Below, piece by piece: positions 2-55,719 of a stretch of 64,000 nucleotides of DNA. The DNA is from a virus, in IMG/VR virus record IMGVR_UViG_3300023174_003623, positions 90,778 to 154,777 of that record. One strand, written 5' to 3'. Numbering within the stretch: the stretch's first letter is position 1; every line of letters starts with the position of its first letter. The position numbers and the translations under genes were made by a program. The notes below the pieces were generated by a model. That model did not search any database. It saw nothing but the letters and a program-made list of their open reading frames with translations, and was not told the origin of the DNA.

Positions 2-1666
2 TCTATGTTTGTTCCTATCAATTCAGCATATAATGTATCTATTCCTACAAATATTTCAAATGCAGGAATTTCATTTATTGTAGGATCAAACCAAGCTACT
101 ATCTTTATTGCTAATAGTGCTGGTAGTTGGGATACTGGTGCAGGTACAAGTTCTGCACAATATGGTCTAGAAGCAATTGTAGCTAATACACTTATAGTTG
201 GTAGTATTCTAAAAGCTGGTAATGCTACATTAGGTATACAAGATCTTCGTATTACTGGATTTGCTGCTAACGCTGTATATTCTGCTGGTAATACAACTTA
301 TGTAGTTAATTTAAATACCAATTATAGTTTATCTTCTAATTTTTATGCAAATACAATTGTAAACAATTGGGAATACTATAACGCAGTTTCTAAAGCTCCT
401 AGTCCTTCAGTTTATCAAAAGAGTTTTGGTGGTAATTCGGCAGTTGTCGATGAACTTCATGTTGTAGTTGCCGATGAAGATGGCAAATTTACTGGTGTTC
501 CCGGTACAATTCTTGAAGTATTCCAAGGTCTTTCAAGAGCTACAGATGCTAAAACACAAGATGGTAATACATTATACTACAAAAATGTAATTAATCAAAA
601 TTCAAATTATGTTTGGTGGGCATCTGATCGTGGTGGTTCTAGTTCAGCAACTTCTCTTGTAATTACCAATTCAACTAATTCTAAACCAATGACTTTATCA
701 TTTATTAATGGTTCAGATGGTGTTGATGAATCAAGCATTGCAATTGGCAATTTAACTCGTGCTTATGACAAATTTAAATCCGCAGAAGATATTGATGTTT
801 CGCTCATTCTTCAAGGTAAAGCTCGTGGTGGGTCTACACAACCAACTGGTGCTGTTGCCACTGCTGTTGGATATCAACTTGCAAATTATTTAATTGATAA
901 TATTGCTGGCTCTCGCAAAGATTGTGTAGTGTTTATATCACCAGATAAAGATGATGTTGTCAACAATATTGGTAAAGATGAATATCAAGATATTGTTGAT
1001 TTTAGACTTGCGCTTTCTTCTAGTTCATATGCTGTGATAGACTCTGGTTATAAATACCAATATGACAAGTATAATGATGTTTATCGTTGGGTTCCTTTGA
1101 ATGGTGATATTGCTGGTCTTGCAGTTCGTACTGATAATTTAAGAGATCCATGGTGGTCACCTGCTGGTTTTAATCGTGGTCAAATTAAAAATATCATTAA
1201 ACTAGCTTATAATCCTGCTAAAGCAGAACGTGACATTCTTTATAAGAATGATATTAATCCAGTCTGCATATTCCCCGGCCAAGGTACGGTGTTATTTGGT
1301 GATAAAACGCTTCTTGGCAAACCAAGTGCATTTGACCGAATCAACGTTCGTCGTTTGTTCATCGTTCTTGAAAAAGCAATTGCAACTGCCGCTAAATTTA
1401 CGTTATTTGAATTTAATGATGCATTTACAAGAGCACAATTTAGAAACTTAGTTGAACCTTTCCTAAGAGACGTTCAGGGTCGTCGTGGTATCTACGACTT
1501 CAAGGTTGTTTGTGATGAAACAAACAATACTGGTGAAGTTATTGACCGCAACGAATTTGTAGGAGACATTTACATCAAACCAGCACGCAGCATCAACTTT
1601 ATTCAGTTGAACTTTGTAGCAGTTAGAACTGGTGTCGAATTCTCTGAAGTTGTTGGCAATTTCTAA
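2..1666 (+). CDS. 18: Contractile tail sheath protein (gp18), 5' end cut by window
   Basis: Forms the contractile sheath around the tail tube. The frame is open to the first base of the window, and the visible 554 codons are shorter than T4 gp18 (659 aa), so the N-terminus probably lies upstream and the ATG at 5 is internal. The C-terminal third is the conserved sheath core with the pattern RGIYDFKVVCDETNNT, then 'PARSINFIQLNFVAVRTG' close to the end. It is followed at 32 bp by the tail tube gene, as in T4. The middle is rich in Gly/Ser/Thr/Asn and probably forms the variable outer domains. Confidence 0.93.
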   Translation, partial: SMFVPINSAYNVSIPTNISNAGISFIVGSNQATIFIANSAGSWDTGAGTSSAQYGLEAIVANTLIVGSILKAGNATLGIQDLRITGFAANAVYSAGNTTYVVNLNTNYSLSSNFYANTIVNNWEYYNAVSKAPSPSVYQKSFGGNSAVVDELHVVVADEDGKFTGVPGTILEVFQGLSRATDAKTQDGNTLYYKNVINQNSNYVWWASDRGGSSSATSLVITNSTNSKPMTLSFINGSDGVDESSIAIGNLTRAYDKFKSAEDIDVSLILQGKARGGSTQPTGAVATAVGYQLANYLIDNIAGSRKDCVVFISPDKDDVVNNIGKDEYQDIVDFRLALSSSSYAVIDSGYKYQYDKYNDVYRWVPLNGDIAGLAVRTDNLRDPWWSPAGFNRGQIKNIIKLAYNPAKAERDILYKNDINPVCIFPGQGTVLFGDKTLLGKPSAFDRINVRRLFIVLEKAIATAAKFTLFEFNDAFTRAQFRNLVEPFLRDVQGRRGIYDFKVVCDETNNTGEVIDRNEFVGDIYIKPARSINFIQLNFVAVRTGVEFSEVVGNF

Positions 1667-2297: not shown

Positions 2298-3857
2298 ATG
2301 GCAGGATCACCAAGTATTTTTGGGTTTCAATTCAAGCGAAAAAAAGAAGATGATAAAAGCAATAACGAATCATTCGCACCGTTAATTCAAGATGACGGTG
2401 CAGTCGCTGTTGCGGCTGGTGGTGCATATGGTACTTATGTAGATTTAGAAGGTTCTGCTCGTACAGAAGCAGAACTTGTTACCAAATACCGAGAAATGTC
2501 GCTTCATGCAGAACTCGATTCTGCAATTGAAGATATTGTTAATGAAGCGATTATTGTAGATGATGATTTTGATCGCGCTATCGAAATCAATCTAGATAAA
2601 ACTGGACTTTCTGATAAACTTAAAGGTGCTATTCGTCAAGAGTTTTCTCAAATTCTTCAGTTGTTTGAATTCAATACACACAGCTATGATATCTTTAGAC
2701 GTTGGTATATTGATGGTAGACTATACTATCATGTAATTATCGATGATGCTAGACCCCAAGATGGTATTAAAGAATTTCGGTATATAGATCCAAGAAAAAT
2801 TCGTAAGATTCGTGAAGTAAAGAAAAAGCCTATACCAAATTTTAACATTGAAGTTACAAAAAATCAACAAGAATATTTTATATACAATGAAAAGGGGTTT
2901 AGTCAAAACATAGGCCCAACTTCTACTGGTACTGGTAGCACTGGTGTTAAGATTTCTGCTGATGCAATTCTTCATATTACATCAGGATTAACAGATAAAA
3001 ACAATCAATTAGTATTAGGATTTCTTCATACTGCAATTAAGCCATTAAATCAACTTAGAACACTTGAAGATGCCACATTAATTTATAGAATTTCTCGCGC
3101 ACCAGAACGTCGAGTATTTTATATCGATGTAGGTAACTTGCCTAAAATGAAAGCTGAACAATATCTTCGTGATATTATGGCAAGATTTAAAAACCGAGTT
3201 GTGTACGATTCTTCTACTGGTGAAGTAAGAGATGACAGAAAGTTTATGACCATGTTAGAAGATTTCTGGCTACCTCGTCGTGAAGGTGGTAAAGGAACAG
3301 AAATTCAAACACTTCCTCCCGGTCAAAATTTGGGGCAATTAGAAGATGTTAAATACTTTCAAAGAAATCTTTACAAAGCTTTAAAAATTCCTGTCAATCG
3401 TATTGAACCTGAACAGACTTACAATCTTGGTCGTGCAACTGAAATTACAAGAGACGAAGTGAAATTTGCTAAATTTGTAAATAGATTGCAGACTCGTTTT
3501 GCAACTTTATTTTTAAATGCTCTTGAAAAACAATTAATTCTTAAAAAGATTATCACACCAGAAGATTGGGTGGTTCTCAGTAATTCAATATCATTTGATT
3601 TTGCTAGAGATAATCATTATGCAGAATTGAAAGAATTAGAAATTGTAAACAACAGAATGGCGGCTGTACAAGCTGTAGACCCATTTGTTGGAAAATATTT
3701 CTCAGTTGAGTGGGTTCAGAAAAACCTTTTACGTCAAAAAGATGAAGATATAGAAGAAATTATGCAACAAATAGGTAATGAAGTCCAGCAGGGAATTATT
3801 CAACCTGTAGAACAACCAGAGCAGGCTGCTGCTCCTGCCAAATCAAGTAAAAAATAA
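2298..3857 (+). CDS. 20: Portal vertex protein (gp20)
   Basis: Dodecameric portal through which DNA is packaged and ejected; 519 aa, close to T4 gp20 (524 aa). Recognised by overall T4-type portal sequence: 'DLEGSARTEAELVTKYREM' near residue 50, then 'SAIEDIVNEAI', 'YRISRAPERRVFYIDVGNLP', and 'ALKIPVNRIEPE' with 'TEITRDEVKFAKFV' in the C-terminal half. The last about 30 residues are Gln/Pro/Ala-rich and probably disordered. Standard T4 position before the prohead core genes. Confidence 0.95.
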   Translation: MAGSPSIFGFQFKRKKEDDKSNNESFAPLIQDDGAVAVAAGGAYGTYVDLEGSARTEAELVTKYREMSLHAELDSAIEDIVNEAIIVDDDFDRAIEINLDKTGLSDKLKGAIRQEFSQILQLFEFNTHSYDIFRRWYIDGRLYYHVIIDDARPQDGIKEFRYIDPRKIRKIREVKKKPIPNFNIEVTKNQQEYFIYNEKGFSQNIGPTSTGTGSTGVKISADAILHITSGLTDKNNQLVLGFLHTAIKPLNQLRTLEDATLIYRISRAPERRVFYIDVGNLPKMKAEQYLRDIMARFKNRVVYDSSTGEVRDDRKFMTMLEDFWLPRREGGKGTEIQTLPPGQNLGQLEDVKYFQRNLYKALKIPVNRIEPEQTYNLGRATEITRDEVKFAKFVNRLQTRFATLFLNALEKQLILKKIITPEDWVVLSNSISFDFARDNHYAELKELEIVNNRMAAVQAVDPFVGKYFSVEWVQKNLLRQKDEDIEEIMQQIGNEVQQGIIQPVEQPEQAAAPAKSSKK

Positions 3858-12283: not shown

Positions 12284-13344
12284 CTCAAGTTGCTCTTATA
12301 ACAGATACTCATTGGGGTTGTAGGAATGACAGTCCAATCTTTGCACAACATATTTTTAGGTTTTACAGCGAAGTATTTTTCCCTTATCTTAAGCAGCATG
12401 GAATTAATTTTATCATTCATCTTGGCGATATTGTAGATCGAAGAAAGTATATCAACTTTGTTACGGCTAAGAATCTTAAAGATGATTTTATCGACCCAAT
12501 AAAGAATAACAAGTTATTCCTTCATGCGATTATAGGCAATCACGATACATTTTTTAAGAACACTAATGAAGTAAACTCGATGGATGTTTTATATGGAGAC
12601 AGTTCTCCATTTCGATATTATTCATCCCCTCAAGAAATTAATATTGATGGCTGTAAAATATTATTGATGCCTTGGATTTGCACTGATAATCATGATGAGT
12701 GTATGGAAGCTATTGAAAATACAGATGCTCAAATATTGTTTGGTCATCTTGAACTCAGTGGGTTTGAGATGTATAAAGGACATGCTAACGATCATGGATT
12801 TGAGTCGAAGATTTTTGATAAGTTTGATTTAGTATGTTCCGGTCATTTTCATCATAAATCAACGAGAGGCAATATCAATTATCTTGGTGCCCCTTATGAA
12901 ATGACTTGGAGTGATTATGATGATCCCCGTGGCTTTCATGTGTTTGATACTGCAACAAGAGAATTGACTTTTATAGAAAATCCAAATAAGATATATCATA
13001 AAATAATCTATGATGATACTGATAAAACTATTGAATATGTTACTTCTCAAGACTTTTCAGAGTATAAGGGTTGCATAATAAAAGTTATCATTAAGCAGAA
13101 GACCAACCCACATCTGTTTGATTTGTTTATTGATGCACTTGAGAAAGCTGGAGTTGCAGACCTTCAAGCAGTTGAAGATCATCTGAATCTAGACCTTACG
13201 ATGGATGAAGAAATCCTTGAAGAAGCAGAAGATACTTTGTCGATATTGAATAAGTTTATTGAACAAATTGCAGACAAAAACAATCACAATAATCTTTCTC
13301 GTTTAATCAAAGAGTTATATGATGAAGCTCTAGCGGTGGAATAA
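12280..13344 (+). CDS. 47: Recombination nuclease subunit gp47 (SbcD/Mre11-like)
   Basis: Metallophosphoesterase subunit of the gp46/47 end-processing complex, needed for recombination-dependent replication and host DNA breakdown. 354 aa. Metal-binding motifs in order: TDTHWG (D9, H11), HLGDIVDRR (about 48-55), GNHD (about 86-89), and GHFHH further on. Overlaps gene 55 by 4 bp. Confidence 0.95.
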   Translation: MTQVALITDTHWGCRNDSPIFAQHIFRFYSEVFFPYLKQHGINFIIHLGDIVDRRKYINFVTAKNLKDDFIDPIKNNKLFLHAIIGNHDTFFKNTNEVNSMDVLYGDSSPFRYYSSPQEINIDGCKILLMPWICTDNHDECMEAIENTDAQILFGHLELSGFEMYKGHANDHGFESKIFDKFDLVCSGHFHHKSTRGNINYLGAPYEMTWSDYDDPRGFHVFDTATRELTFIENPNKIYHKIIYDDTDKTIEYVTSQDFSEYKGCIIKVIIKQKTNPHLFDLFIDALEKAGVADLQAVEDHLNLDLTMDEEILEEAEDTLSILNKFIEQIADKNNHNNLSRLIKELYDEALAVE

Positions 13345-39165: not shown

Positions 39166-39396
39166 ATGAAAGTTAAATTTGATCCGTCCAACCCTAGCCA
39201 TCTCAGGTCTTATCGAATTTTCTTGACACATAAGACTTGGTTGAATGGCTGCATCTTTGAACTAGAATGGCCGTATCATGACATTCCCGTGATGATTCAG
39301 GCAAAAATTATTGATAAATATCTTGACAAACTTATCAAAATGATGGATACTGAATCTTCTGAAAACAAAACTAAACGTCAACGAAAAAGTGCTTGA
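39166..39396 (+). CDS. Unknown small protein
   Basis: 76 aa, start MKVKFDPSNPSHLRSYRI with AGGAGG at 39156. Two Trp; Lys-rich tail. Likely early expressed. No family recognised. Confidence 0.65.
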   Translation: MKVKFDPSNPSHLRSYRIFLTHKTWLNGCIFELEWPYHDIPVMIQAKIIDKYLDKLIKMMDTESSENKTKRQRKSA

Positions 39397-39421
39397 CAAG
39401 TTTTCAAAAGAATTGTACACT
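39393..39421 (+). promoter_or_regulatory. Sigma-70 type promoter for DUF932 gene
   Basis: TTGACA (39393-39398), 17-bp spacer, TACACT (39416-39421). Confidence 0.75.
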
Positions 39422-39452: not shown

Positions 39453-40409
39453 ATGGCTCATATGATTGAAGAAATTAATGGTGTTGCTCAAATGGCATAT
39501 TCTATTTCGGGTGAAGTACCTTGGCACAGTCTTGGTAAACCAGTTCCGCCCGATCTGTCTCCGAAGCAGATGCTAGAGGCTGCTGGTGTAAACTGGACTG
39601 TTCGCAAGGTTCCGGCTTTTGCAAATGTGAACGGTAAGAACGTAGCGGTTGGTCGTTCTGCTCTGGTTCGCGATTCTGATGATAGCATTCTTGATGTTGT
39701 CTCTGATGATTGGAACATTCTTCAGAACGAAAGTGCTTTTGAGTTCTTTCATGATTTTGTTGCTGCCGGTGAGATGGAAATGCACACTGCTGGTTCTCTT
39801 CGTAACGGTCAGATTGTCTGGGCACTTGCGAAGGTTAATGATGGCTTTGAGCTTTTTAAGGGTGATACTGTAGACTCTTATCTACTCTTCACCAATCCGC
39901 ATCGTTATGGTTGGAGTATTGACGTTCGCTTTAGTCCGATTCGTACCGTGTGTTGGAATACCTTGACTCTTTCGTTGAATACTGCTTCTACGAACATGGT
40001 GAAGGTTTCTCACCGCCGACAGTTTGATTCGGATATGGTGAAGGAAACTCTTGGTGTTGCTAAAGAGAAGTTGGGTAAGTATAAGGAAATGGCTTCTTAT
40101 TTGGGTGCCAAGCGTTATACTGAACAGTCTCTTGTGGAATACTTCAAGAAAGTATTTCCGGTTTCTGGTGCTGGTGAAAAGGAAATGTCTCGTTCTGCTA
40201 GTAAGGCTCTTGATATCATTCATACGCAGCCCGGAGCTTCATATGCTGAAGGTTCTTACTGGCAAGCGTGGAATGCGACTACATATATGGTAGACCACAT
40301 TATTGGTCGTAACAATGACAATCGCCTTACGTCAGCTTGGTATGGTCAGGGCAAGACTCTTAAGAATAAGGCTCTTGAACTTGCGATTACTATGGCTGAA
40401 GCTGCATAG
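39453..40409 (+). CDS. DUF932 (TIGR03299-type) phage/plasmid protein
   Basis: 318 aa from ATG 39453 (GAGGTG upstream). 'MAHMIEEINGVAQMAY' with 'PWHSLGKPVPPDLSPKQML' and NWTVRKVPAF are hallmarks of the DUF932 family carried by phages and plasmids; function unknown. C-terminal 'GTLLNALNA'-type helix replaced here by WQAWNATTYMVDHIIGR. Codon use is biased toward C/G-ending codons, suggesting high early expression. The last base of its stop codon is the first base of a hammerhead ribozyme. Confidence 0.85.
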   Translation: MAHMIEEINGVAQMAYSISGEVPWHSLGKPVPPDLSPKQMLEAAGVNWTVRKVPAFANVNGKNVAVGRSALVRDSDDSILDVVSDDWNILQNESAFEFFHDFVAAGEMEMHTAGSLRNGQIVWALAKVNDGFELFKGDTVDSYLLFTNPHRYGWSIDVRFSPIRTVCWNTLTLSLNTASTNMVKVSHRRQFDSDMVKETLGVAKEKLGKYKEMASYLGAKRYTEQSLVEYFKKVFPVSGAGEKEMSRSASKALDIIHTQPGASYAEGSYWQAWNATTYMVDHIIGRNNDNRLTSAWYGQGKTLKNKALELAITMAEAA

Positions 40410-40464
40410 TCCTTCTGACGAGTCTTTAATAGACGAAACGGGAAAAGGATGTCCCGTCAAGGAC
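40409..40464 (+). ncRNA. Type I hammerhead self-cleaving ribozyme
   Basis: All conserved core bases are present: CTGACGA (40415-40421) and GAA (40435-40437). Stem I GTCCTT/AAGGAC (40409-40414 with 40459-40464), stem II GTCT/AGAC (40422-40425 with 40431-40434, loop TTAAT), stem III ACGGGA/TCCCGT (40438-40443 with 40452-40457, loop of 8). C17 is C40458, giving the classic GUC cleavage site, so self-cleavage is predicted between 40458 and 40459. Open helix is stem I, hence type I. All three stems are perfect. Confidence 0.92.
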
Positions 40465-40594
40465 ACGCACCGAGACCTTGTGGTGTATCGGTGACGCGGG
40501 GTATAATGGAATTCCCCAGGAAGAATGTAGGCAGATGAAAGAGTCTTGTCGGAGTTGATCGCCCGCCCTCTCCATCTCACATTCTTAAACCGCG
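40465..40594 (+). ncRNA. Structured RNA downstream of the hammerhead
   Basis: Hairpin CACCGA/TCGGTG (40468-40473 with 40488-40493), then three nested helices: CGCGG/CCGCG (40495-40499 with 40590-40594), AAGAATGT/ACATTCTT (40521-40528 with 40579-40586), AGATG/CATCT (40533-40537 with 40573-40577), plus GAG/CTC inside. It ends one base before the stop codon of the converging minus-strand gene. No reading frame. Hammerhead cleavage would release it with a 5'-hydroxyl end. Identity unknown. Confidence 0.65.
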
Positions 40595-55275: not shown

Positions 55276-55451
55276 TGAATACCTATCTGGCTTACTACAA
55301 TCGAAAGACCGTGACTATTCACGCAGAAACTTCATACGAAGCACAGAAGAAAGCCGCCTTTTACTTCAAAGCGAAGAAGGCTTATAAGGTTGCTGTGATA
55401 CTAGTAATGGATTTAAATGGTGAAGTAGTACACGATACTGCTTCGCTATAA
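55275..55451 (+). CDS. Conserved small phage protein
   Basis: 58 aa: MNTYLAYYNRKTVTIHAETS then 'KKAAFYFKAKKAYKVAVIL'. This short beta-alpha pattern is frequent in phage early regions; unknown role. Confidence 0.65.
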   Translation: MNTYLAYYNRKTVTIHAETSYEAQKKAAFYFKAKKAYKVAVILVMDLNGEVVHDTASL

Positions 55452-55690
55452 CCGAACGTGTCGATTAGCCATCGACTAGTGTGCGCCCGCACGATGAGAA
55501 GCCGTGTCGCAGCGGCTGGGCCTTACTCTTAGGTAGCGAAGAGCGGTGGCACCCGATAGTGTTCTGTGGCCGAGAAGAGGATGGTAGGATTGAGTGATGG
55601 TAGTTAGCTGATGGTATCGAAGGGCAGGCCAGCCAGACCCCGGAACCAGATGATGCGAAACTACTTGACAATCTATAGAACCTCCGCACA
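55452..55690 (+). ncRNA. Gene-free, hairpin-rich region, candidate RNA
   Basis: No supported reading frame. Four successive perfect small hairpins: GTCGAT/ATCGAC (55460-55476), GTGC/GCAC (55481-55492), AGCCG/CGGCT (55500-55517), CTCTT/AAGAG (55526-55543). More GC-rich than its flanks. It could be a structured RNA on the early transcript. No known RNA family recognised (not tRNA, tmRNA or hammerhead). Confidence 0.4.
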
Positions 55691-55719
55691 GAACAAGCAC
55701 TTTCTTTTCAAAATAATTG

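Follow-up and report, generated by a model that had tools for sequence, protein, structure and literature searches.

The window that we analyzed is a stretch of 64,000 nt (positions 90,778 to 154,777) from the IMG/VR virus record IMGVR_UViG_3300023174_003623. Its sheath, portal, scaffold, major head protein, and DNA polymerase belong to T4-type families, and the matches of the sheath, portal, capsid, and DNA polymerase bear out the label "T4-like" given in a preliminary description of this DNA. In the window, a gene for a DUF932 protein ends on a stop codon whose last base is also the first base of a hammerhead ribozyme, and the ribozyme runs directly into a second RNA domain (Table 1). The DUF932 protein falls into PHROG 1221, which is annotated "function unknown." The promoter listed 5' of its gene was retrieved by a consensus scan that returned 9 promoter-like sites in comparison to 4.8 expected by chance. 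The next gene 3' of the element is convergent (40987-40595).

Table 1. Features of the DUF932 locus and of the composite RNA (positions in the window)
Feature	Position	Strand	Remarks
Sigma-70-like promoter, TTGACA-17-TACACT	39393..39421	+	5' of the DUF932 gene; consensus scan only
DUF932 gene, 318 aa	39453..40409	+	Stop codon TAG at 40407-40409; Pfam PF06067, E 3.6e-36
Type I hammerhead ribozyme	40409..40464	+	RF00163, 33.8 bits; compensatory changes at the same place in L001, L002, and L004; 0 of 300 shuffles
Stem I of hammerhead	40409-40414/40459-40464	+	6 bp, GUCCUU/AAGGAC; 5' end is the G of the stop codon (40409)
Core CTGACGA	40415-40421	+	G8 is 40420
Stem II of hammerhead	40422-40425/40431-40434	+	4 bp, GUCU/AGAC; loop TTAAT (UUAAU)
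GAA	40435-40437	+	A13 is 40436
Stem III of hammerhead	40438-40443/40452-40457	+	6 bp, ACGGGA/UCCCGU; 8-nt loop
Predicted cleavage site, C17/A1.1	40458..40459	+	Predicted from where the hammerhead core lies
Conserved structured RNA domain fused to hammerhead, ~136 nt	40459..40594	+	Domain carried by 29 other contigs; not in Rfam 15
P2 hairpin	40466..40496	+	5' strand 40466-40473; 14-nt loop 40474-40487; 3' strand 40488-40496, bulge at 40494
P2-loop strand, CCU (40476-40478) and UGUGGU (40479-40484)	40476..40484	+	Pairs with tail
P3 hairpin, GGGG...CCCC	40498..40517	+	Compensated differences among members; helix picked by eye
J3/4, AGG	40518..40520	+	GG invariant in the members aligned
P4 hairpin, AAGAAUGU...ACAUUCUU	40521..40586	+	Hypervariable inside; constrained folding
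Tail, ACCGCG	40589..40594	+	Pseudoknot partner of 40479-40484; the conserved unit ends here

The hammerhead on the DUF932 stop codon

The type I core is complete (CUGANGA, GAA, A15.1-U16.1, and H17), as judged both by direct reading and by alignment to the RF00163 (Hammerhead_1) model. All sequence details of the preliminary description, which had placed a complete type I hammerhead with three stems of 6, 4, and 6 bp on the DUF932 stop codon, were confirmed. In the covariance model search that it had proposed, RF00163 matched 40409-40464 with 33.8 bits, in comparison to a gathering score of 34, and with an E-value of 8.1e-7 in a search of 401 bases. Because this score is just under the curated cut-off, a default Rfam scan misses the window hammerhead. 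When the whole record of 154,777 bases was searched, RF00163 gave one match (E 7.4e-8), and none of 14 control genomes had any. A geometric scan for stems of at least 6, 4, and 6 bp found one match in the window, whereas 300 dinucleotide shuffles had none, in agreement with the earlier judgment that an accidental origin is improbable. Relaxing the stems to 4, 3, and 4 bp still yielded one match in the window and a single one across all 300 shuffles.

We then compared the four IMG/VR loci that are closest to the window in their DUF932 protein (L001 to L004). In three of them (L001, L002, and L004), a hammerhead sits on the same DUF932 stop codon, and its changes in stems II and III are compensated; in L003, the hammerhead lies ~290 nt further on from the stop codon. 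Across the larger set of elements described below, two of which (L096 and L122) reach 37.2 bits with RF00163, compensated changes are found in stems II and III (with 98.4% and 100% pairing, respectively), and stem I is nearly constant. The pair GUCCUU/AAGGAC occurred in all members found, with A instead of G in two copies, a constancy of stem I, and likewise of stem II, that is partly ascertainment because several search patterns fixed parts of both stems; the invariance of AAGGAC, in particular, was partly built into the patterns. Together, these comparisons identify 40409-40464 as a genuine type I hammerhead with a predicted cleavage site. We also noticed that, in window-type hammerheads (window, 40438-40457; L090, L096, and L122), the stem III loop repeats the 3' strand of stem I in the form AAGGA(C/U), and this repeat could compete for GUCCUU.

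Taken alone, this hammerhead is a further member of the known phage hammerheads. Hammerheads at gene junctions of phages and prophages, with several flanking genes, have been described, the cutting of long transcripts being their suggested task (Perreault et al. 2011, PMC3088659). The conserved partner of the window hammerhead is the structured RNA just 3' of it, which the preliminary description did not contain.

A conserved pseudoknotted domain fused to the hammerhead

By reading on past the hammerhead, we first noticed that conservation extends over a further ~135 nt, as far as a tail AACC. The coordinates 40409-40464 put forward earlier are thus correct for the hammerhead and too short for the conserved unit, which continues to about 40594. 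We found the composite in 29 IMG/VR contigs in addition to the window, with one copy (L113) lacking a recognizable tail. A search pattern made from the downstream part alone, with the hammerhead excluded, retrieved eight true members, all in viral contigs, and eight out of eight had the hammerhead. Hammerhead-based and core-based patterns brought in more divergent members. Exactly one composite was present per record in 27 of the 27 matched records.

Homology was further evaluated with a held-out model, R1, a sequence-only model of the AAGGACA-P2-loop region made from eleven distant members, none of them of the window type. The sole match of R1 in the 64-kb window was 40459-40491, with an E-value (0.0014) that is modest as evidence of homology across subgroups. 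R1 also found L160, L096, L095, and L122 and, weakly, L098, L115, and L126. It did not match anything in eight viral contigs with hammerhead arrays (L081 to L088) or in 46 DUF932 loci without the element, nor, at an E-value of 0.01, in 53 other viral loci. Three representatives compared by blastn with 50,697 phage records gave no real match, and no cultured phage with the element was found in this way; one representative compared with plasmids gave no real match either, the short matches in both searches being due to chance. None of 398 genomes searched, all from the phylum to which a Roseovarius genome belongs, had the hammerhead pattern. Seven pattern matches in bacterial genome contigs had neither hammerhead nor tail and were dismissed as chance. 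Likewise, we removed L097, L099 to L108, L117 to L119, L129 to L134, L137, L139 to L144, and L145 to L230 except L160 as chance matches, either by reading or because they had no hammerhead and tail.

Members share a general order after the predicted cut: AAGGACA, P2, P3, a junction that is usually AGG, P4, one to a few nucleotides that usually end in A, and a tail ACCNNN. The P2 loop has the consensus CCU-NNNGGU-GYA, the 3' strand of P2 is bulged in most members, and P4 is hypervariable in both length and sequence. The last six bases of the P2-loop strand are complementary to the tail, and in the window this loop-tail helix contains six out of six pairs, two of them G-U. In nearly all members, the head AGG and the tail ACCNNN are complementary to adjacent parts of this one loop.

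We measured covariation over the hammerhead stems, P2, and the loop-tail pseudoknot in 21 distinct anchored sequences, counting on hand-chosen anchored segments because a whole-element MAFFT alignment was poor in P4. Pairing was possible in 98.4% of the cells in comparison to 84.6% in shuffles, 62 cells were changed on both sides (18.3 in shuffles), and the covariation score was 0.391 (0.106 in shuffles). None of 500 shuffles reached the observed paired fraction, two-sided changes, or score, and pairing fell to 22 to 45% in slid controls. For the loop-tail pseudoknot alone, 29 of 33 variable cells were paired, in comparison to a shuffle mean of 20.7 (p 0.0006). Compensatory loop/tail variants include GUGGU/ACCAC, AUGGU/ACCAU, UCGGU/ACCGA, and CCGGU/ACCGG, with one position of the helix showing G-C, A-U, U-A, C-G, and G-U pairs and two others showing three pair types each. 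In P2, all three inner pairs had changes on both sides, and 100% of the cells were paired. By the measure of covariation, P2 and the loop-tail pseudoknot are demonstrated to be real helices. P3 and P4, which were chosen by eye, also showed compensated differences. Minimum-energy folding gave no significant z-score, as expected since the RNA is pseudoknotted, and was not used as evidence.

Besides hammerheads, no Rfam 15 family matched the element at E-values up to 10 in the window, L091, L111, L112, L114, or L123 to L125; permissive searches included, Rfam holds no known family to which the second domain could be assigned. Nor did we find a description of the composite in the open-access literature, to which our survey was confined. 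The composite of a hammerhead and a pseudoknotted RNA thus appears undescribed and adds a structured RNA family to those in Rfam 15, from which it is apparently missing because its members come from environmental phages that have not been cultured, as the blastn search of phage records indicates.

Genomic contexts and related phage ribozymes

In the window, L090, L098, and L120, the final base of a stop codon is also the first of the hammerhead, and in L111 and L114, the hammerhead follows a tRNA at a distance of 6 to 9 nt. At the other end, the tail is found 1 to 9 nt 5' of a tRNA gene in L111, L135, L136, L138, and L160 and 16 to 24 nt 5' of a start codon led by a Shine-Dalgarno sequence in L109, L110, L112, L114, L122, and L123. 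In L111, the composite fills the gap between tRNA-Leu and tRNA-Asn. These flanking stop codons, tRNAs, and Shine-Dalgarno starts set the 5' boundary of the unit at the hammerhead and its 3' boundary at the pseudoknot tail. The preliminary description had seen the point of the hammerhead in the DUF932 gene and in the 3' end of its mRNA. This idea is not supported, since the composite is also found within tRNA arrays and ahead of other genes, and since 46 other DUF932 loci are without the core; for the same reasons, we rejected an element specific to DUF932.

The position of the composite also differs between close relatives. It follows DUF932 in the window, and in L096 and L122 it is held beside a ~260-nt intergenic RNA, RNA-2, near tRNA-Asn; flanks of the L096/L122 type lie elsewhere in the window phage. 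A tRNA-Asn(GUU) gene was observed just or soon 3' of the element in L111, L160, L096, and L122 and may be an insertion hot spot. RNA-2, the second intergenic RNA that looks structured, is located directly after a stop codon at 55441-55700 (+) of the window, and further copies are present in L122 (about 3029-3270), L096 (about 12400-12640), and L095 (192-435). The window copy is about 85% identical to those of L096 and L122, and RNA-2 adjoins the hammerhead element in L095, L096, and L122. Searches for RNA-2 among cultured phages (blastn) and, with the L095 copy, in Rfam (E-values up to 1) gave no match. L114, a phage contig with the element and tRNA genes, also contains a permuted tmRNA at 22-214 (-) (RF04321, 136 bits).

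The ribozyme resembles RF00163 in its complete core, its three stems, and its open stem I and departs from typical members in that stem I is near constant and its 3' strand is the first segment of the second RNA domain. The RAGATH-1 hammerhead (RF03152) shares the core, but its match is distant, with 16.2 bits, far below the cut-off of 56.3. Like the hammerheads of Perreault et al. (PMC3088659), the window hammerhead is intergenic and located at a gene end, here the DUF932 stop codon. Unlike those, of which there are several, it is the only one in 154,777 bases and, in every record counted, a single copy fused to a conserved pseudoknotted RNA. The type I hammerhead arrays that we found in the viral contigs L081 to L088 look like the earlier type: each hammerhead is at or next to a stop codon, and a second domain is absent. 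For example, the six hammerheads of L081 (8690-13234, -) all start at or beside a stop codon, with a Shine-Dalgarno site and the next gene coming after each of them.

HDV-like theta ribozymes of gut phages are associated with tRNAs and cleave at tRNA 3' ends (PMC10879173). They share with our element that a self-cleaving ribozyme class sits in phage tRNA arrays and likely releases RNA ends. In contrast, theta ribozymes have an HDV-like double pseudoknot and cut at the tRNA 3' end, whereas the element is a hammerhead whose predicted cut would give a separate RNA its 5' end, and no HDV-like Rfam match was obtained over the element in the window and the members searched. VIPR guide-RNA arrays are interspersed with hammerheads, according to a 2026 preprint (PMC13142463). 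The element resembles VIPR as a phage RNA with a pseudoknotted tail and in having hammerheads beside small RNAs. It differs from the VIPR vrRNA, since reading of 40409-40594 revealed no tandem YNNGG repeats and since its hammerhead forms one unit with the RNA. A link to VIPR was also sought in the hammerhead-array contigs and rejected: L081 to L084 and L086 to L088 contain no GGYNN arrays of at least 7 units.

Release and possible role of the RNA

What bacterial and phage hammerheads are for is a question as old as their discovery. Here, a hammerhead is tied to a defined and conserved RNA product, which turns its function into a testable question. We estimate at about 55% the probability that the element is a self-processing structured phage RNA, released by its hammerhead, protected at its ends, and most likely acting in trans. 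The 5' hammerhead would cut the RNA free of a carrier transcript, either a messenger or a tRNA transcript and, in the window, a read-through of the DUF932 gene. As already proposed in the preliminary description, the DUF932 message would end, and a downstream RNA would begin, at such a cut. Hammerhead cleavage leaves a 2',3'-cyclic phosphate on the 5' fragment and a 5'-OH on the 3' fragment. The DUF932-side fragment would accordingly carry the cyclic phosphate, and the freed RNA would begin with 5'-OH-AAGGAC, fold into P2, P3, and P4, and be locked by the pseudoknot between NNNGGU of the P2 loop and ACCNNN of the 3' tail. The 5' AGG could pair with the neighboring CCU of the same loop and thereby bring both ends together. 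Because this pairing would draw on the same AAGGAC strand as stem I, the RNA could refold once it is cut, and religation could thereby be blocked. The putative AGG:CCU pairing is the same in all members, and covariation therefore has no bearing on it; the loop CCU might instead pair with the AGG of J3/4, the junction with GG that follows P3. Both ends should be safe from nucleases, one through its 5'-OH and the other through the pseudoknot, which would yield a stable small RNA. If this is true, phages would be able to free a stable small RNA from any transcript without the help of a protein. A bolder reading, which we consider rather unlikely, is a new class of phage noncoding RNA that would excise itself by means of its hammerhead from mRNA or tRNA-array transcripts, with one loop splinting both ends, and that is possibly circularized or nuclease proof and directed in trans against host functions.

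A self-released, end-protected small RNA acting on its own is most likely the most economical role, its main rival being a 5' leader that works in cis. According to the latter, a polycistronic transcript would be divided by the hammerhead, and the second domain, with no job of its own, would become the 5' end of the downstream mRNA or tRNA precursor, which it would stabilize or whose translation it would control. The six copies with a Shine-Dalgarno start 16 to 24 nt past the tail fit this role equally well, the five with a tRNA 1 to 9 nt past the tail are in line with it, and hammerheads at gene junctions are known in phages (PMC3088659), with the six in a row at stop codons in L081 as a further case. 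However, the convergent gene in the window leaves no downstream cistron to be led by the RNA, downstream genes are mostly unrelated among members, and one copy per record is unlike the arrays that dice mRNAs, which are without the second domain. On balance, a cis module appears rather unlikely to us.

We regard as improbable that the second domain is itself a ribozyme or a ligation splint, in which CCU-NNNGGU would hold the tail beside the 5'-OH, the tail would be trimmed, and the RNA would be circularized by itself or by a phage or host ligase. That AGG and ACCNNN are complementary to neighboring stretches of the same loop in almost every member would suit such a device, as would the sharp ends of the unit. 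A 5'-OH end is a substrate of RtcB-type ligases, so the end made by the hammerhead would be appropriate. Against this, the AGG:CCU pairing is invariant and thus draws no support from covariation, and we recognized no second cleavage motif and no Rfam match. That related phages hold the composite at different places (L096 and L122 versus the window) could point to a selfish mobile element with a hammerhead RNA, similar to retrozymes, hopping between intergenic sites. Yet there is one copy per record with a single hammerhead, no repeats or transposase were seen, no clear empty site with a target duplication was found, and ordinary phage recombination suffices to explain the different places, which makes mobility of this kind very improbable. 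Finally, a score 0.2 bits under the Rfam cut-off might suggest a chance or decayed look-alike of a hammerhead without function, but this is hardly credible in view of 0 of 300 shuffles and compensatory evolution in 21 distinct sequences.

Three copies weigh against the reading that we favor, a small RNA released by its hammerhead. In L135 (2138-2245, -), L136 (8538-8642, -), and L138 (9446-9550, -), GUAAC is present instead of GAAAC, corresponding to a change of A13 to U, and the second domain is intact. This change should cripple the hammerhead, and cleavage may have been lost in some tRNA-array copies; given this replacement, cleavage may not be essential in every copy. The same three copies have a ~60-nt insert in stem III, and the insert itself looks conserved. 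Two further contigs, L232 (IMGVR_UViG_3300032246_001167) and L233 (IMGVR_UViG_3300032219_001111), have near-identical elements whose main difference is a large insert in stem III, which suggests that loop III is an insertion hot spot.
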